The notes under the pieces are model-generated. The model was not told where the DNA came from and did no database searches. It saw nothing but the letters and a program-made list of their open reading frames with translations. Positions 11,901 through 17,220 of a stretch of 21,814 bases of DNA are shown here, piece after piece; position 1 is the first letter of the stretch; each line of letters starts with the position of its first letter. Position numbers and translations under genes: made by a program. Origin of the DNA: a virus; IMG/VR virus record IMGVR_UViG_3300001450_000380, positions 1 through 21,814 of that record. One strand, given 5' to 3'.

Positions 11901-12956
11901 GCTACATTAGTACCAATATCATCTGACATGAATGGATACGTTGACAGATTTCTAAACTATAGTTATTTGAATCCATATGATTTGTTAAACAGAATACCTA
12001 GAGCAGCATTAATGTCATATGCAGAGGGAACAGATAATGAAGAACAAACAAGAACCAAAGTTGCAAACGCAACTGGAGAATTTTTTAAAGAGTTTGGTTT
12101 AATGTTTGCTGAACCATCAATTGTTACTAATGCTTTACTAGAAATTAATAGCGGAAGAACAGCAACTGGAAGAGAAATATTTGACCCAGACGATCCAGCA
12201 GGAGTTAAAACAGCAAAAGGATTTATTCATTTGATTGATACAGCATTACCTACTGTCAGTCCATATGGAGTTCAGTATCAAGTGGGAACAAATAATCCAC
12301 TGGATGTTTCTTTAAAACAAAAAGACACTACTCAAATTGTTAAAAGTATTATTGGTGGAGATCCAATGGGGCAAGAATTAATATCATCAAAAGGTGGGCC
12401 AATTGATGTTAAAGAAACAATGGTGCAAGCTTTTACTGGATTAAAACAAGTTAAACCTCAAATGAAAAAAACCATAGGTTTTAAAGCTTATGAAGCAAGA
12501 GATGAAATAGCAGCTATTAGTGCTAACTTTAATGATTTGCTACGATCAAAAACTCCTGTAGAAGCAGAACAATTTATTAAAGGTTATATAGAAACCAACG
12601 CTGATAGGTTTGAATCTTTGAGAGATTTATATAGATCTATTAAAGACGCTAGAATATTAGGAGTTGGTGAAAGAGATATACTCGATGCTCTTACACAAGC
12701 AAAAGTTTCATCCCCAGATTTAATTATGAAAAATTTCTTTGAGCCGTTAGAGTTAAATACAGAGCTAGCAGATGAAGCATATTTAGGTTCAAGCCAAAAA
12801 GCTCCTCTTCCTGTTCCAACCAGAGAGATACAATCTTTGGAAAGAGAAATGCAATACCAACCTGTTGAGGGTCAGTTTAATAGGCCTATTAATAGATTAA
12901 ATGCTGCAGAAGTTTTAAGAGAAGAAGAGATGAAAAAAATACTAGGCACACCCTAG
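8907..12956 (+). CDS. Very large internal virion / DNA-ejection protein candidate (1349 aa)
   Basis: This is the longest gene in the window. The length is close to T7 gp16 (about 1,300 aa), the core protein that leaves the head during DNA entry. I see no lytic transglycosylase motif and no signal peptide. An N-terminal region (about 1-50) precedes a Gly-rich hydrophobic patch (about 90-130: GLGVGAQYV, GLPGLGAAGIV). Long helical regions rich in Lys, Glu and Gln follow (about 220-600). A segment near residue 715 (SPGTQLRNITNTPMFSAANG) and another near 1010-1060 (YRRQGTPWDKTATLVPIS) resemble large proteins of marine phages. It is the last gene of the rightward virion operon and its TAG lies in the CTAG shared with the convergent resolvase gene. 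Codons are strikingly AT-rich (Arg almost always AGA). Confidence 0.65.
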   Translation: MPTVTFKDGTSVFVQDTKPETLKKTELDYLANQRKNTVPLEEIASGVQRGIIGIAEGLTTIPTTVYDHLNDTDVTNTVIKHFEKAKPEVKTGLGVGAQYVTQFGLPGLGAAGIVSNFGRANKLKGALAAGVVDGAVNTDDVESLTDVFFDSESDQDRLARLRGSEAAYERLKERFVIAGEGAAITRFAPPIIKGGLEGVGRVAETAVSLPVIRDVARTVAQAAQWTKGKLVPAKIKDTINNSNRGIYNFLKRNFTKEGALPSQAVYQAQQAVADRTEGLLDQVDMAHSQIGQFFEDGVKRGKISTGQQESIARSVNEFLFPLTKVEFELPNATASEQRKLAKQIQNKAMKNLLGFEELLDYKSYNFIDEAGDVFEGLKLPDILNGSRKLIDGLTEELQQLSKTNESGFSSLLLPENLATALEENIGMYGSRVYKRYVDGAFDIDPTFQDNAIKAIQREFNGISKNEAYDAFQTLAQNSKNIDDFDELVNTEIYTNNISKGLLKGRTLNKLPEVRQALGQITGYLQSGSKNILAETKAQNYLTVKKLSTIIGKNKAYQQILKENNKEGAMKFLLNPEAGGGGVNPNFGKARSEFASDSAFQKAKTNMEYIGGKENDVATGIAFTMPGPRGNPIPMKQFGEGTGALKGYYGRKDVVDAITGASSDVLNISDSVGKLFQRGLYQGSDPNFFDYAKGAYGIFLGTKSAVQYGKTVASPGTQLRNITNTPMFSAANGNLGTTGRITDAVQYSFAGLFDPATKTLLKQPIDEMTELGIILRGKGATGLAEVKDLSKSSFDILKSTKKIPGVRFAEKVYGMTDDAARVHNYIMEQGKLTRALNNSFKAGYKELTMPVTAGRNMSEFAEFVDGAGNINLKTANLTDEQLKRFINAESAEIAKNTVPNYGRVPSAIKNVVRSSPFGNFVSFPSEVIRNIVNITDRGLKEIASTNPEIQKIGARRLAGAFMVTAVAPKALEQLGSNLTGVSQEQIDAYRRQGTPWDKTATLVPISSDMNGYVDRFLNYSYLNPYDLLNRIPRAALMSYAEGTDNEEQTRTKVANATGEFFKEFGLMFAEPSIVTNALLEINSGRTATGREIFDPDDPAGVKTAKGFIHLIDTALPTVSPYGVQYQVGTNNPLDVSLKQKDTTQIVKSIIGGDPMGQELISSKGGPIDVKETMVQAFTGLKQVKPQMKKTIGFKAYEARDEIAAISANFNDLLRSKTPVEAEQFIKGYIETNADRFESLRDLYRSIKDARILGVGERDILDALTQAKVSSPDLIMKNFFEPLELNTELADEAYLGSSQKAPLPVPTREIQSLEREMQYQPVEGQFNRPINRLNAAEVLREEEMKKILGTP

Positions 12957-13333
12957 AATATATCAATCACCAGCTCACATCTTGGATCGTCTTTGTCTAC
13001 TCCACCAAACTTATAGACCACTTCTTTTACTTGTTTGAAGTCATCGTCTTGTATGATCCCGGCTTTAACCAAAGCATCACAAGCAAACTTATCTATGACT
13101 GAACATGGATTACTTATGTCAAGTCTTCTGTTGCTTCTAGCATAGTAGGTGTATGTTAATCTAACTGGCTCAATAAATTTAGGTAAGTCTTGTATCTTTT
13201 CTACAAGATCTTCTGAGTATATTTTTTTTGCTGTAGATAAAACTCTGTAGTGTGCGTTCCTGTAGTTGTTTAAGTTCAGAATAAATTTTTTTTTCTTTGA
13301 ATAGTAAACATCCAAAGGTAGTTTGATTTGCAT
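12953..13333 (-). CDS. RusA-like Holliday junction resolvase
   Basis: This 126-aa protein matches the RusA family: RRLDISN (D72), then IDKFACDALVKAGIIQDDD (D81, K82, D86, D96-98) and a C-terminal strand with PRCELVIDIF. RusA enzymes cut four-way DNA junctions using a cluster of acidic residues that bind Mg2+. Here the usual DxDN is DISN, a substitution I have seen described in phage RusA-like proteins. It should resolve recombination or replication intermediates before packaging. The ATG overlaps the exonuclease stop (TAATG). Its TAG lies in the same CTAG as the stop of the convergent virion gene. It is the last gene of the leftward operon. Confidence 0.88.
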   Translation of the reverse strand: MQIKLPLDVYYSKKKKFILNLNNYRNAHYRVLSTAKKIYSEDLVEKIQDLPKFIEPVRLTYTYYARSNRRLDISNPCSVIDKFACDALVKAGIIQDDDFKQVKEVVYKFGGVDKDDPRCELVIDIF

Positions 13334-14424
13334 TAAGTTGATGGCCTGGTTTCAATCCATGGCCTAATTTGTGTAATAGATGCACCATTAAATAAATTTT
13401 TAACTTTATCGCAAGTCTCCAAGATCTCTTGTGGAAACCCACTGTTTACAACTTCAATTAATTCTTTGCTAGAAAAAAAGTTTTTGCCCGGCGTGTTAAG
13501 GTTCTCGGCCACGTTAACAAATCTAATCTTGTCCTTCTCATACAAAACCATATCGTCATCCTTTTCCATGACATGAGCTGGTATCAACTCAGGTATAAAG
13601 TTATGTCTTGAACAACCCTTGGTTTGTCTGTCCTCGCTAATCTTTCTATCGTGCTGAGTGCAATGCCAGTGAGCATCTCCTTTCTCAATGTCAACCTTAG
13701 CAAACCTACAAGATCTGCAATGTATTTTAGGTGGCAATGCTCTACTTAGGTAACAGGCTTGTTGGCCTGGTGTCATATAACTTTTGATTCGGTAATCTGT
13801 TTCTGGTATGTAGTTATCTGGTGGGATCTCTGCTAGTAAAATACTTTTTGCTTTCTCTATCAAAGAATCAAAAGCATTACTATCATACTGAATTATTTCA
13901 GTATATAAGTCTGAGTTATTTTTGTTATAAACAATTGCAATGCATTGAGTAAACTTAAACAAGCCCATGTATAAATGTAACTGGGCAGCATACTCTTCTG
14001 ACCACTCACAATAACTACCAAGCTTTACTAGGTTGTTGAAGCGATTGTCGTTGGCTGTCTTGAACTCTAGCAAGAATGGATCTTTGGTATCAATCCCCGG
14101 AAAGTTTTGCCCTACGCCATCGATGTGTCCTTTGACGTGGCCTCCCAGTGCCTCTGTCTCAAACTGTTTGCCATTAGAAGCAAGATCAAATATCTGAGCA
14201 CCGGGAATCTTTCTAAGTTTCTTAATAAGATCATCTTCAACTACGTTGCCTAGATCAAGAAGCCTTAAAACTCTAGCAGGCATATCATCAGGCATAAGCC
14301 AGCGATAACGCATCCATAACAAACGTTGATTCGGATTACCTATCTGACTCATGCCTAAGTAAAATCTTTGACGCTTCTTTTGTTGCAGTTCAACATCGTC
14401 TAGTAAATGATTTATATCTTTCAT
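13333..14424 (-). CDS. PD-(D/E)XK (RecB/Cas4-like) exonuclease with C-terminal Cys cluster
   Basis: This 363-aa protein has the nuclease core in order: GMSQIGNPNQRLLW (about 24-37, equivalent to the N-terminal RecB-motif helix), GHIDGV (D102), LLEFKT (E120-x-K122) and AAQLHLYM (Q148-x3-Y152). This is the set used by lambda-exonuclease/RecB/Cas4-type enzymes to degrade DNA ends with Mg2+. A C-terminal cluster C236-x2-C239-x15-C255-x15-C271 probably binds zinc or possibly an Fe-S cluster. Unlike Cas4, no Cys is present in the N-terminal motif (GNPNQR), which argues against the Cas4-type cluster. It should produce single strands for the Sak4-type annealing ATPase. The start overlaps the helicase stop by ATGA. 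Confidence 0.88.
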   Translation of the reverse strand: MKDINHLLDDVELQQKKRQRFYLGMSQIGNPNQRLLWMRYRWLMPDDMPARVLRLLDLGNVVEDDLIKKLRKIPGAQIFDLASNGKQFETEALGGHVKGHIDGVGQNFPGIDTKDPFLLEFKTANDNRFNNLVKLGSYCEWSEEYAAQLHLYMGLFKFTQCIAIVYNKNNSDLYTEIIQYDSNAFDSLIEKAKSILLAEIPPDNYIPETDYRIKSYMTPGQQACYLSRALPPKIHCRSCRFAKVDIEKGDAHWHCTQHDRKISEDRQTKGCSRHNFIPELIPAHVMEKDDDMVLYEKDKIRFVNVAENLNTPGKNFFSSKELIEVVNSGFPQEILETCDKVKNLFNGASITQIRPWIETRPST

Positions 14425-16085
14425 AGATCTATATCTTCGTTTTGTTTAGTTTTAATTCCAACAACGTTCTCATACTTACCTTGCTTTTGCACAATGATTT
14501 CAGAGATTGTATCAAATGCACCACTGTTAATTAATTCAGCGGCCATCCACGGTTGACTTGGTGATCCCCACTTGGTAGTGATCTTCTTCCACTTACGCAC
14601 CGCCATGTTGTGTGCAGTGGGATGGCCAAACATTAGTGGCATCTTCTTAGGAAAGAACTCATCCTTAACTGTAAAGACTACTTGACAATACTCACTGCCA
14701 TTTTTGGACTTAACCACTGAGGCAAAGATATCTGTGATAGGTTTGTTTTTAGGAGGCGATGCTTTCTTTTCATCTGATAAGACAGCCTGTCTCTCAGCCT
14801 TGGTACGCCTTGCTACTTCTCTTTCCTTCTTGGTCCAGAGAACCTTTGATTGTGTTGACTCAAACACTTGGCCGCACTCAATGCATTCTTTAGCAGAGGG
14901 TGAGTTGATAGCATTACAGCTTGCACAAATCTTAGGCTTGTATCTTCCGGGAAGACTTTCGTCAGGCTCTACCTCATCTAGACAGCCATGCCTAGCTACG
15001 TTCTCACCGTAGTCAAGCAGCAAACAATTGTCTTTGTCATCATGCAATCGCATCCCACGACCACACATCTGCACATACAAGCCAATGCTTTGTGTTGGCC
15101 TTAGTAAAGCTATGCAATCTGTTCTTGGAGCGTCCCAACCTTCAGTCAGCACACCAACGTTGCACAGCGCATGGATCTTGCCATCTTCAAAGTCTCGCAG
15201 TATTTGATCTCGCTTATCGTTAGGTGTCTCACCTGTAATAAGTTCAGCTTTAATATTGTATTGCTGTAAGTACTGAGTCATCTTGGTTGCATGTAGCACT
15301 GACACGCAAAAGAAAACAGAAGCTGTTCTGCCTTTGGTGTAAGCGTTATCTATCCAGTCGTTAATAACTTCAATGATGGTTTCATCTACCATGGCTATGT
15401 CTTCTAATTCTTTTTCCCGGAAGTCTCCATTCTTAAACTTCAAACTAACTTTGCTAGCATCAATGATGGCATTGTCGTTGACAGCAAAGGCAGACAATCG
15501 GCACAGATAACCTGCTTGTATTAACTCTGGTATCGATACACTGTAGGCAAGACCTTTAAAGAAATGATCCTTACGCTTGCCATAGATATAACCCTGACCC
15601 ATGCGATAGGGCGTAGCAGTACAACCCATAACTTTCATGGCCTGGCGTTCTGATAGGGTGTCAATGATTTTCTTGTATCGAGTCAAAGAACTAGGTGGCA
15701 CGTTGTGTGCTTCATCAATAATCATGTAGTCAAACTTGCCAACCTTTTCTAATCTCTTGGGCGAGGCCAAGGTATCGCGACTGGCAACAAGAATTTGTGC
15801 ATTGTGTTGAAAGCGTTTCATACCAGCAGCGAGTACACCCACCGGGGCATCTGGCCACACAGACTTTAGTTTGTTTTCAGCTTGGGCAACCAACTCTTTT
15901 CTATGAGCCATGATAAGAAACCTGGCCTTGGGGTTTTTGTTAAAGACTTCTTTAATGAAGTGTGAAAATATAATGGTTTTACCAGCGGCTGTTGGTAAAG
16001 CAATAAGCGTTGGATCTTCAGGCCTAGTATCAAACCAAGAGTGAAGAGCATCTATAGCGTTGCGTTGGTAGTATCTAAGCTTCAA
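14421..16085 (-). CDS. Superfamily 2 DEAH-box helicase with zinc ribbon
   Basis: This 554-aa protein has PTAAGKT (31-37, Walker A), DEAH (124-127), TATPYR (156-161), a second RecA-like domain with TEGWDAP (314-320) and motif VI QMCGRGMR (339-346). A zinc ribbon follows with CASC (387-390) and CIEC (401-404), then a basic stretch (KKEREVARRTKAERQ) and a separate C-terminal domain of about 110 residues. Phage SF2 helicases of this kind unwind branched or R-loop DNA during replication and recombination, as T4 UvsW does. The start is TTG: there is no in-frame ATG until codon 150, and the N-terminus MKLRYYQRNAID is the usual one for the family. AAAGAG lies five bases upstream, and the TTG overlaps the previous stop (TTGA). 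Confidence 0.93.
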   Translation of the reverse strand: MKLRYYQRNAIDALHSWFDTRPEDPTLIALPTAAGKTIIFSHFIKEVFNKNPKARFLIMAHRKELVAQAENKLKSVWPDAPVGVLAAGMKRFQHNAQILVASRDTLASPKRLEKVGKFDYMIIDEAHNVPPSSLTRYKKIIDTLSERQAMKVMGCTATPYRMGQGYIYGKRKDHFFKGLAYSVSIPELIQAGYLCRLSAFAVNDNAIIDASKVSLKFKNGDFREKELEDIAMVDETIIEVINDWIDNAYTKGRTASVFFCVSVLHATKMTQYLQQYNIKAELITGETPNDKRDQILRDFEDGKIHALCNVGVLTEGWDAPRTDCIALLRPTQSIGLYVQMCGRGMRLHDDKDNCLLLDYGENVARHGCLDEVEPDESLPGRYKPKICASCNAINSPSAKECIECGQVFESTQSKVLWTKKEREVARRTKAERQAVLSDEKKASPPKNKPITDIFASVVKSKNGSEYCQVVFTVKDEFFPKKMPLMFGHPTAHNMAVRKWKKITTKWGSPSQPWMAAELINSGAFDTISEIIVQKQGKYENVVGIKTKQNEDIDL

Positions 16086-16375
16086 TGAATCTCTTTCTTT
16101 TGATCACGGGGTTGTATCAAAAGCTGCATTAACTCTTCATGCTCATAAGATTCGATGTTATCCATTACTACCGTGGATAGTAATTGCATAGCATCATAAG
16201 GTGTGTGTGAAAATTTAAAAGATAATTCAACACAGAATCTTGCAAGAGTAACTACAGCTGCTTTGGTATCTAGATCTTGTCTAGACCAATCATCAATGCA
16301 CATATGTAAATCATGCATCACTTGTTCACAAGTTTTTTTATCTAAAGAATCTAATAAATTTTCTTTTTCTATCAT
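16082..16375 (-). CDS. Small hypothetical protein in the recombination operon (97 aa)
   Basis: I choose the ATG at 16375 because GGAAAG lies five bases before it; an earlier in-frame ATG at 16390 (102 aa) has no ribosome site. The product is predicted mostly helical, with a hydrophobic central part (AAVVTLARFCVELSFKF) too polar to be a membrane anchor, and three Cys. It ends with a TGA overlapping the helicase TTG, so translation of helicase is likely coupled to it. I do not recognise the family. Near the start it shares E(S/N)LL(N/D)SLDK with the small protein just upstream. Confidence 0.65.
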   Translation of the reverse strand: MIEKENLLDSLDKKTCEQVMHDLHMCIDDWSRQDLDTKAAVVTLARFCVELSFKFSHTPYDAMQLLSTVVMDNIESYEHEELMQLLIQPRDQKKEIH

Positions 16376-16526
16376 TTTTTCTTTCCACATTTAATAAAGT
16401 TAGTTTAGCATCTTTCACTTTCTGGTCGATGTCAGTTGGCAAACTATCAAATGTTTTGTCCAAAGAATTTAACAAAGATTCTATTACATTAATGAGGTTG
16501 TTGGCCTCTCTTTTGTCTATTAGCAT
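16338..16526 (-). CDS. Small hypothetical helical protein (62 aa)
   Basis: The ATG at 16526 has an excellent ribosome site (TTGGAG, seven bases before). The protein is charged and helical with a basic C-terminus (ERKNDRKRKFIRFFR), which could bind nucleic acid. It overlaps the start of the next small gene by 38 bp. I recognise no family. It is the first clear gene after the leader/stem-loop at 16572-16633, so its expression would depend on read-through of that element or on an internal start. Confidence 0.6.
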   Translation of the reverse strand: MLIDKREANNLINVIESLLNSLDKTFDSLPTDIDQKVKDAKLTLLNVERKNDRKRKFIRFFR

Positions 16527-16689
16527 TTCTTTTCTCCAAAAAAGATGGGAATATTGTTCCCGGTTTAGTTATAATAAAAAGGCGAGGAGTAACCAAAGCA
16601 AAGTCCAGGTCATTCATAGCTTTAGTTACTCGCTCGAGGATTCTACCAACAACATCACTCTCTCCTTTTAATAGGTCGACCTGTTTCAA
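16489..16689 (-). CDS. Doubtful small ORF (TTG start, 66 aa)
   Basis: A frame open from a TTG at 16689 would encode GESDVVGRILERVTKAMNDL and a hydrophobic ALVTPRLFIITKPG stretch. No ribosome site precedes the TTG. The only good one nearby (AAGGAG at 16662-16667) serves an ATG in another frame. Codons such as CGC, CTC and CGA are uncommon in the neighbouring small genes, and a strong stem-loop occupies its middle. In the third frame, the 18 codons just before read NDFYHDIETGRPIKRRE, which looks protein-like, so a frameshifted remnant of a small gene is another explanation. Confidence 0.2.
   Translation of the reverse strand: MKQVDLLKGESDVVGRILERVTKAMNDLDFALVTPRLFIITKPGTIFPSFLEKRNANRQKRGQQPH
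16572..16633 (-). terminator. Stem-loop plus T-run: candidate intrinsic terminator/attenuator
   Basis: On the minus strand, GAGTAACTAAAGC (16631-16619) and GCTTTGGTTACTC (16599-16587) pair over 13 positions with a single G-U wobble, around a 19-base loop. An outer GCGAG/CTCGC pairing is an alternative base. Just after it comes CC and then TTTTTATTAT (16580-16571). The stem is GC-poor for a terminator, so it may be partial. It lies between the single-stranded binding protein gene and the small genes leading to helicase, where it could lower downstream expression. Confidence 0.5.
16626..16655 (-). CDS. Candidate leader peptide (9 codons)
   Basis: On the minus strand AAGGAG is followed, after six bases of optimal spacing, by an ATG and nine sense codons (MLLVESSSE) and a TAA. 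The stop codon lies inside the first arm of the stem-loop 16587-16631. A ribosome finishing here would cover that arm. This is the layout of translation-controlled attenuators, but nothing else proves that the peptide is made. Confidence 0.35.
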   Translation of the reverse strand: MLLVESSSE

Positions 16690-16707
16690 TGTCGTGGTAG
16701 AAATCGT

Positions 16708-17220
16708 TTACTTATCCCAGTCAAAAGGATCTTCTTCAGCATCACCGCTAGGTGCTGGTGCTGGTGCTGGGGAAGGGGAAGACGTTGCAGACGAACCACC
16801 AGCTAAAAACTTAGCGATCACATTCTTATCTTCCCACTTCGTACCATCACCCTTGTCTCTGCCTTCTTCAATACGAAGGTTGGCATTGAAAGGGACACTC
16901 ATCATGCTTTCAAGATCCTCCAAACCGAAAGCTTCCATATCAGGATCCATGCTCATGGCTTTTCTCCAGTTACGAAGCTTCCCTTTAGAGACGTTTAGTC
17001 CGTTGCCTTCAAGCATAAAGTTTTCCCAAACTTTCCTACCTGAATACTTCGGTCCCACAACTTCATAAGTTACACTCAGCATCTTATGACCTGTGGCTTT
17101 ACTGTTTTTACTTTCCCATGATGCTCCTACCATTTCGTAGTCTCCAGCAGGCATAGGCCCAATTGAACCGCTGTCATCTTCGACATCAGTTAAGTTTAGA
17201 TTAAATAAATCATCCGACAT
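16708..17220 (-). CDS. DUF669-like single-stranded DNA binding protein
   Basis: This 170-aa protein has the pattern GDYEMVGASWESKNSKATGH, VTYEVVGPKYSGRKVWENF and SKGKLRNWRKAM that I associate with the DUF669 phage family, proposed to be SSB-like. A Ser/Pro/Ala linker (about 142-158) leads to an acidic tail, EEDPFDWDK, like the acidic tip through which bacterial SSBs recruit partners. It would coat single strands during replication and annealing. The gene directly follows the Sak4-type ATPase (11-bp overlap), a pairing common in phages. Its ribosome site AAGGAG lies seven to eight bases before the ATG. The exact family was not searched. Confidence 0.82.
   Translation of the reverse strand: MSDDLFNLNLTDVEDDSGSIGPMPAGDYEMVGASWESKNSKATGHKMLSVTYEVVGPKYSGRKVWENFMLEGNGLNVSKGKLRNWRKAMSMDPDMEAFGLEDLESMMSVPFNANLRIEEGRDKGDGTKWEDKNVIAKFLAGGSSATSSPSPAPAPAPSGDAEEDPFDWDK

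Follow-up and report, generated by a model that had tools for sequence, protein, structure and literature searches.

To our knowledge, structured RNA elements are uncommon 3′ of the genes of bacteria and phages, and little is understood about them. The sib element of phage lambda int, a terminator-overlapping RNase III site, destabilises the int mRNA. The structure described here, formed by two hairpins that we call H0 and H1 and located behind an ssb gene, resembles sib in its place, immediately 3′ of a gene for phage recombination within a polycistronic message, and in its presumed action on the gene upstream. Unlike sib, H0-H1 consists of two hairpins without a conserved U-tract and may have the opposite effect. 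The L17 downstream element (RF01708; PMC2864571) is also a conserved structured RNA placed 3′ of the gene of a nucleic-acid-binding protein, for which feedback has been proposed, but it belongs to a cellular ribosomal gene and has another sequence and structure; H0-H1 matched no family of Rfam 15 at the gathering score, the best sub-threshold hit having an E value of 2.5. The operator of gene 32 in T4 and RB69 (PMC535899) is, like H0-H1, a structured part of the mRNA for a phage Ssb, and it keeps its structure while the sequence diverges. However, that operator sits at the translational initiation region, that is, 5′ of or at the start of the gene, whereas the first pair of H0-H1 is found 3–8 nt after the ssb stop codon and the element is only a putative target of SSB. 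The stem-loops of the Clostridium cip-cel operon, which act by selective processing and stabilisation (PMC4423207), likewise stand behind a highly needed operon gene, and a skew in transcript abundance would be expected in both cases; they are not one homologous RNA family, whereas H0-H1 is a single family with strong covariation, found in phages. The STAXI motif (PMC2864571) is a structured element often found near genes of single-stranded-DNA-binding proteins, but it is made of tandem pseudoknots with UUCG loops, whereas H0-H1 is made of two simple hairpins and has no UUCG loops.

The window, by which we mean the whole stretch of DNA analysed, is viral DNA of 21,814 nucleotides (positions 1–21,814 of IMG/VR record IMGVR_UViG_3300001450_000380). 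The genes of the operon that matter here are the following:

16708–17220, minus strand: ssb-like gene (DUF669) with the acidic C-terminal tip DPFDWDK
16338–16526, minus strand: small conserved gene of 62 aa, next in the operon, with homologues in 249 loci
14421–16085, minus strand: DEAD/DEAH helicase
13333–14424: Cas4-like exonuclease, after the helicase
12953–13333: RusA resolvase, after the Cas4-like exonuclease

The putative identity of the ssb gene rests on a Pfam DUF669 match (1e-9), weak matches to two PHROG SSB families (1.5e-4 and 2.2e-4) and the acidic tail. The 62-aa gene had no PHROG match below 0.1; it is one of two small conserved genes between ssb and the helicase (16338–16526 and 16082–16390), neither with a PHROG match of note. 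When compared with phage isolates, megablast found no close relative of the window and tblastn with ssb gave a 25% match only, and the ssb search of bacterial and archaeal genome contigs returned no relative. The large virion protein of 1349 aa gave weak matches to marine phages, including pelagiphage HTVC027P.

Relatives were obtained as several hundred loci from ssb searches of IMG/VR contigs; these loci are often near-duplicates, and the counts given here are of distinct sequences and not of independent events. We grouped them by the content found 3′ of the ssb stop codon. A first group (L086, L091, L147, L151 and L206, among others) carries an intact small gene of 68–72 aa, gene B, that begins at the ssb stop (TAAATG), and in L034-type phages another small gene, gene A, comes first and gene B second. 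The window clade has a gene B whose C-terminus is replaced and in which both ATGs read ACG in the window and L169, the start being ATA in L015 and TTG in L160. In the AAG clade (L113, L118, L123, L127, L204 and L210) the gene B start has changed from ATG to AAG and the ancestral frame is disrupted by indels or stops. The far clade (L341, L348, L353, L356, L362, L368, L375 and others), with an ssb about 55–58% identical to that of the near groups, has no gene B. The last group (L053, L058 and L157) has gene A only, and the H0-H1 element is absent from it. In the ssb tree the far clade stands apart from the rest, and the AAG clade is placed beside the phages with intact gene B. Gene B is under purifying selection where it is intact (pN/pS 0.57), and shows none in the window clade (pN/pS 1.36, from small numbers). 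Gene B can be dispensed with, several lineages having a dead copy or another gene in its place, and the 66-aa frame of the window is a dead or dying copy of it. The sequence-only reading had remarked on an unusually long span between ssb and the next gene; the gap to the ATG at 16526 is indeed 181 nt, and it is long because a small gene died there. A DNA pattern search of viral contigs returned mostly known loci, a new relative with intact gene B (L101) and chance matches.

Phages L058, L053, L062, L079 and L157, which have no H0-H1 element, carry a different ORF of 65–71 aa in the first 205 nt after ssb. This ORF contains a 12-bp internal hairpin (GACATCAAGGGC/GCCCTTGGTGTT, GACATCAAGAGT/GCTCTTGGTGTC, ACATCAAGGGTG/CACCCTTGATGT), apparently with compensatory changes too, which is perhaps a functional replacement of H0-H1.

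The space behind ssb holds these features in the window:

16639–16705, minus strand: hairpin H0, GATT-CTACCACGACAT/ATGTTGT-GGTAG-AATC, 16 consensus pairs, from RNAalifold on 17 relatives and the window fold
16489–16689, minus strand: 66-aa frame, remnant of gene B
16678–16683, minus strand: CAGGTC in the H0 loop, candidate kissing partner of GACCTG
16658–16665, minus strand: purine motif GGAGAGAG in the H0 loop
16627–16656, minus strand: micro-ORF (ATG, nine codons, TAA), not conserved
16583–16636, minus strand: hairpin H1, the stem noticed earlier lengthened by CGAG/CTCG, with 14 pairs in the consensus and 17 in the window
16606–16611, minus strand: GACCTG in the H1 loop, candidate kissing partner of CAGGTC
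16576–16580, minus strand: T-run (T5) 3′ of H1, window clade only
16547–16561, minus strand: hairpin H2 (GGGAA/TTCCC), conserved in its terminator-like position, with arms that differ by lineage

The core of H1 (GAGTAACTAAAGC/GCTTTGGTTACTC, 16631–16587) has 13 bp, with one G-U and a 19-nt loop, and extends through CGAG/CTCG over a 1-nt bulge to 17 bp (16636–16583), after which comes CCTTTTTATT. It is the sole hairpin of at least 13 bp, with at most one wobble and a loop of at most 25 nt, in the 21.8 kb. Because 12 dinucleotide shuffles also gave three such stems in total, H1 alone is not compelling. Just upstream of it, H0 is an equally long hairpin that had been overlooked. The 131-nt element folds with −43.3 kcal/mol (z −5.8); tiling of that strand gave 334 tiles, none of which reaches this energy (lowest −41.5). 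Among the tiles, the most negative folding z (−4.6, 20 shuffles) belongs to a 131-nt tile within the ssb coding sequence (17134–17004, minus strand).

The strongest case for H0-H1 comes from covariation. Run blind on an alignment of 17 distinct near relatives that was based on sequence, with no prior structure, RNAalifold returned exactly H0 and H1. Bases pair in 94.3% of the cells, and both sides have changed at 18 of the 30 pairs (12 of 16 in H0 alone). There are 46 double-change cells, as against 10.9 in shuffles (0 of 500), and sliding the partner by 1–3 columns lowers pairing to 34–54% and leaves at most 8 double-change cells. When only relatives with a dead gene B or none were considered, in an alignment fitted to the covariance model, 94.6% of the cells were paired and 55 carried double changes, versus 19.5 in shuffles (0 of 500). 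Compensatory changes in the arms of H1, by which the stem was to be checked, do occur: CGAG/CTCG has become CAAG/CTTG in L015 and L167 of the window clade, and CGTG/CACG in L151 and L147. In H0, and also within that clade, TCACC/GGTGA of L171 is replaced by CTACC/GGTAG in the window. In the L233 contig we observed an apparent chimera within H1, with a 5′ arm like that of L204 and a 3′ arm like that of L118, two AAG-clade variants, which is either a recombinant phage or an assembly artefact.

The far clade, folded independently, again gave H0 and H1, with inner pairs of its own. When a covariance model was built from the 17 near sequences, none of them from the far clade, it matched far-clade loci directly behind ssb with E values of about 1e-3 to 1e-7 (0.45 Mb searched), and unrelated control loci gave no match up to E 1. 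Weaker extra matches fell on the complementary strand at the same palindromic site, plus one at E 0.68. In longer contigs the element was found as a single copy in 14 out of 15 and was missing from the gene-A-only contig; its position is directly behind ssb, or behind ssb and a small gene in L034-type phages. Column types with G-U outnumber those with A-C by 20 to 4, indicating that the folded strand is the ssb-sense RNA. Covariation and fixed linkage to one gene, the two marks of conserved cis-acting structured RNAs as a general class, are both present, and H0-H1 is almost certainly a conserved RNA structure. What we regard as established is that the element is structured, that it folds as RNA of ssb sense, that it keeps one position after ssb and that it does not depend on any reading frame.

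Other readings of the site were discarded. A two-arm operator in double-stranded DNA is disfavoured by loops that vary from 3 to 19 nt while the arms co-vary, and by the excess of G-U over A-C on the ssb strand. A frameshift from ssb into the next frame, which is open there in some clades, was rejected, the frames differing by clade and mostly stopping early. A CsrA-type GGA loop was dropped on finding that the far clade alters GGAGAGAG to AAGAGAG, CAGAGAG or GAGAGAG.

What might such an element do? We propose, with a probability of roughly 0.45, that H0-H1 acts in cis at the 3′ side of the ssb message, protecting or processing the ssb mRNA with respect to the downstream genes. On a polycistronic message running from ssb to rusA, the two long stems would form a boundary that blocks 3′-to-5′ decay, is cut by an RNase III-type enzyme, or both. 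The ssb mRNA would then persist longer than the stretch that codes for helicase, exonuclease and resolvase, and a leaky terminator-like H2 would further lower downstream transcription. The gene 3′ of the element varies, being the 62-aa gene in many phages, an inserted gene in L385 and neither of these in the AAG clade, where a homologue of the 102-aa gene follows, as judged by eye. Since the element stays with ssb while the following gene changes, an action on the ssb message is favoured. Moreover, SSB is needed in large quantities and the enzymes encoded after it in small ones, and two long stems placed between them fit a decay barrier or a processing site that sets their ratios. In Clostridium operons, 3′ stem-loops behind highly expressed genes set stoichiometry (PMC4423207), and RNase III cuts can leave stabilising hairpins at 3′ ends, for instance after ahpC (PMC5371410). 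Several observations speak against the boundary. In phages with intact gene B, a translating ribosome would unfold H0 and H1, a poor fit with a pure decay barrier, and relatives of the L058 and L157 type manage without the element, although they carry a different hairpin within a different small gene.

The purine loop, which is conserved, and a potential contact between the loops also speak against a simple barrier and suggest that something binds the element specifically. The main rival to the boundary is an operator bound by SSB. By analogy with T4 and RB69, whose Ssb proteins are autogenous translational repressors acting on structured mRNA targets of divergent sequence (PMC535899), the phage SSB might bind H0-H1 in its own 3′ region and reduce how much SSB, or how much of the next gene products, is made. 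The physical tie of the element to ssb, in one copy per contig, is consistent with this, as is the GAGAGA of the H0-loop purine motif, which is kept in nearly all relatives even where no start codon lies downstream. The loops could also kiss: CAGGTC and GACCTG pair in 94% of the cells, one pair being compensatory (in L151 and L148), and H0 and H1 are possibly joined in many members. This contact is a lead only, because it is absent from L034 and the far clade. Against an SSB operator stand the absence of the kiss from the far clade and the location of the T4 operator at the translational initiation region of gene 32, whereas H0-H1 is 3′ of ssb, and we consider it unlikely. A wider proposal appears to us somewhat unlikely: H0-H1 would represent a new RNA family of phages, a 3′ operator of ssb with two kissing hairpins that binds SSB, or is released to act in trans, and adjusts the recombination operon, and the small gene would have arisen or been kept on it as a passenger and then died repeatedly while the RNA stayed.

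Alternatively, H1 and H2 could be a pair of partial intrinsic terminators that end some transcripts and lower the downstream genes with no sensing, as known for internal terminators after highly expressed genes (PMC9045158). H2 is followed by T6 (16543–16538), which abuts the GGAG of the 62-aa gene, and a small hairpin with a U-tract abutting this Shine-Dalgarno (SD) sequence is retained in nearly every lineage that has the 62-aa gene in place. Its arms are rebuilt from one lineage to another (TGAAGTGT/ACACTTCA, TGAGACC/GGTCTCA, TGAAATCC/GGGTTTCA, TGAGGTGT/ACACCTCA, CCAGAGGTGTT/AACACCTCTGG). A simple search for a stem and U-tract of the intrinsic-terminator type found it in 15 of 16 representative sequences, L206 being missed solely through its long loop. 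The spacer to the U-tract is 1–7 nt; in the window H2 is weak, with 5 bp and a 3-nt spacer. H2 with its U-tract is a better terminator candidate than H1, which has its T5 in the window clade and no U-tract outside it. H0 never has one, and the AAG clade has neither the 62-aa gene nor H2. With the U-tract of H1 limited to one clade and H0 without any, termination may explain H2, not H0-H1, and as an account of the whole element we find the terminator pair quite unlikely.

Two further features were seen around H2. At 16526–16545, the U-run and A-run that flank the GGAG of the 62-aa gene can alternatively pair and leave the SD in a loop (CUUUUUU-GGAG-AAAAG), similarly to what is found in relatives. 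In some far-clade phages a new small gene, at about 100–230 nt after the ssb stop in L385, is inserted exactly between H2/U-tract/SD and the 62-aa gene, and uses the SD of the latter.

A trans-acting function, in which H0-H1, with or without H2, would come off the ssb message and act on phage or host targets as a small RNA, is in our opinion highly unlikely. The compact, position-fixed structure, the exposed GAGAGA loop and the terminator-like hairpin behind it would suit a small RNA, but the AAG clade is without that hairpin, and the region is translated in phages with gene B.

The sequence-only reading had taken H1 as a translation-controlled attenuator, in which a ribosome stopping at the TAA of the micro-ORF would block the stem and let transcription continue. 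All the parts that it listed are in place on the minus strand: after AAGGAG and a spacer of 6 nt come an ATG (16656–16654), nine codons and a TAA (16629–16627) inside the 5′ arm of a 13-bp, one-wobble stem with a T-run behind it, the whole between ssb and the recombination genes. The conservation and location of the stem were borne out by the comparison, but those of the micro-ORF and the T-run were not. Of 49 distinct relatives, 8 keep the start and stop of the micro-ORF, namely the window and 7 sequences close to it, all near-identical members of the window clade, and the other 41, which keep the stem, lack them; even within the window clade, the frame stops earlier in L165 and L160 has no micro-ORF. 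As a regulator the micro-ORF fails on this count. The T-run, as part of a terminator, is limited to the same clade, and in several relatives the 66-aa frame encodes a full-length gene B protein that runs through the stem, which the sequence-only reading had named as a refutation. Among 18 gene-less sequences of the far clade, no ATG was found between the purine motif and H1. The micro-ORF ATG lies within the 3′ arm of H0 and is explained as part of it, so that it would be buried in a stem. Several lineages do have an ATG, a codon and a stop just 5′ of H1, yet 17–18 nt from the purine motif, an arrangement for which the pairing of CATC with GATG in H0 can account. The distant L034 also has a frame (ATG, six codons, TAG) ending in the H1 arm, but no SD stands at a suitable distance from it. 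The micro-ORF is thus a by-product of dead gene B and the H0 arm and, with micro-ORF and T-run confined to the window clade, a translation-controlled attenuator is not supported and we find it hardly credible; one could have been gained in that clade alone.

Finally, the idea that the stem merely reflects coding constraint on the small protein (ERVxKA…LATPRL), for which the intact gene B of several lineages and its pN/pS of about 0.57 could be cited, is refuted by the gene-less far clade, the same hairpins and compensatory changes being found where gene B is dead or absent and the pairing of H1 being restored in L015 and L167 by an Arg-to-Cys change in the conserved TPRL of the protein itself.

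The present case also carries a caution: what looks like an attenuator, with its short frame, SD-like motif and stem, can be misleading when the motif and the start codon belong to another hairpin. H0-H1 is tied to ssb across a broad set of uncultured marine phages and is not in Rfam, and it is an RNA structure that outlives the protein gene overlapping it. If H0-H1 sets the amount of SSB relative to helicase, exonuclease and resolvase, it would be a natural dosage device for phage recombination.
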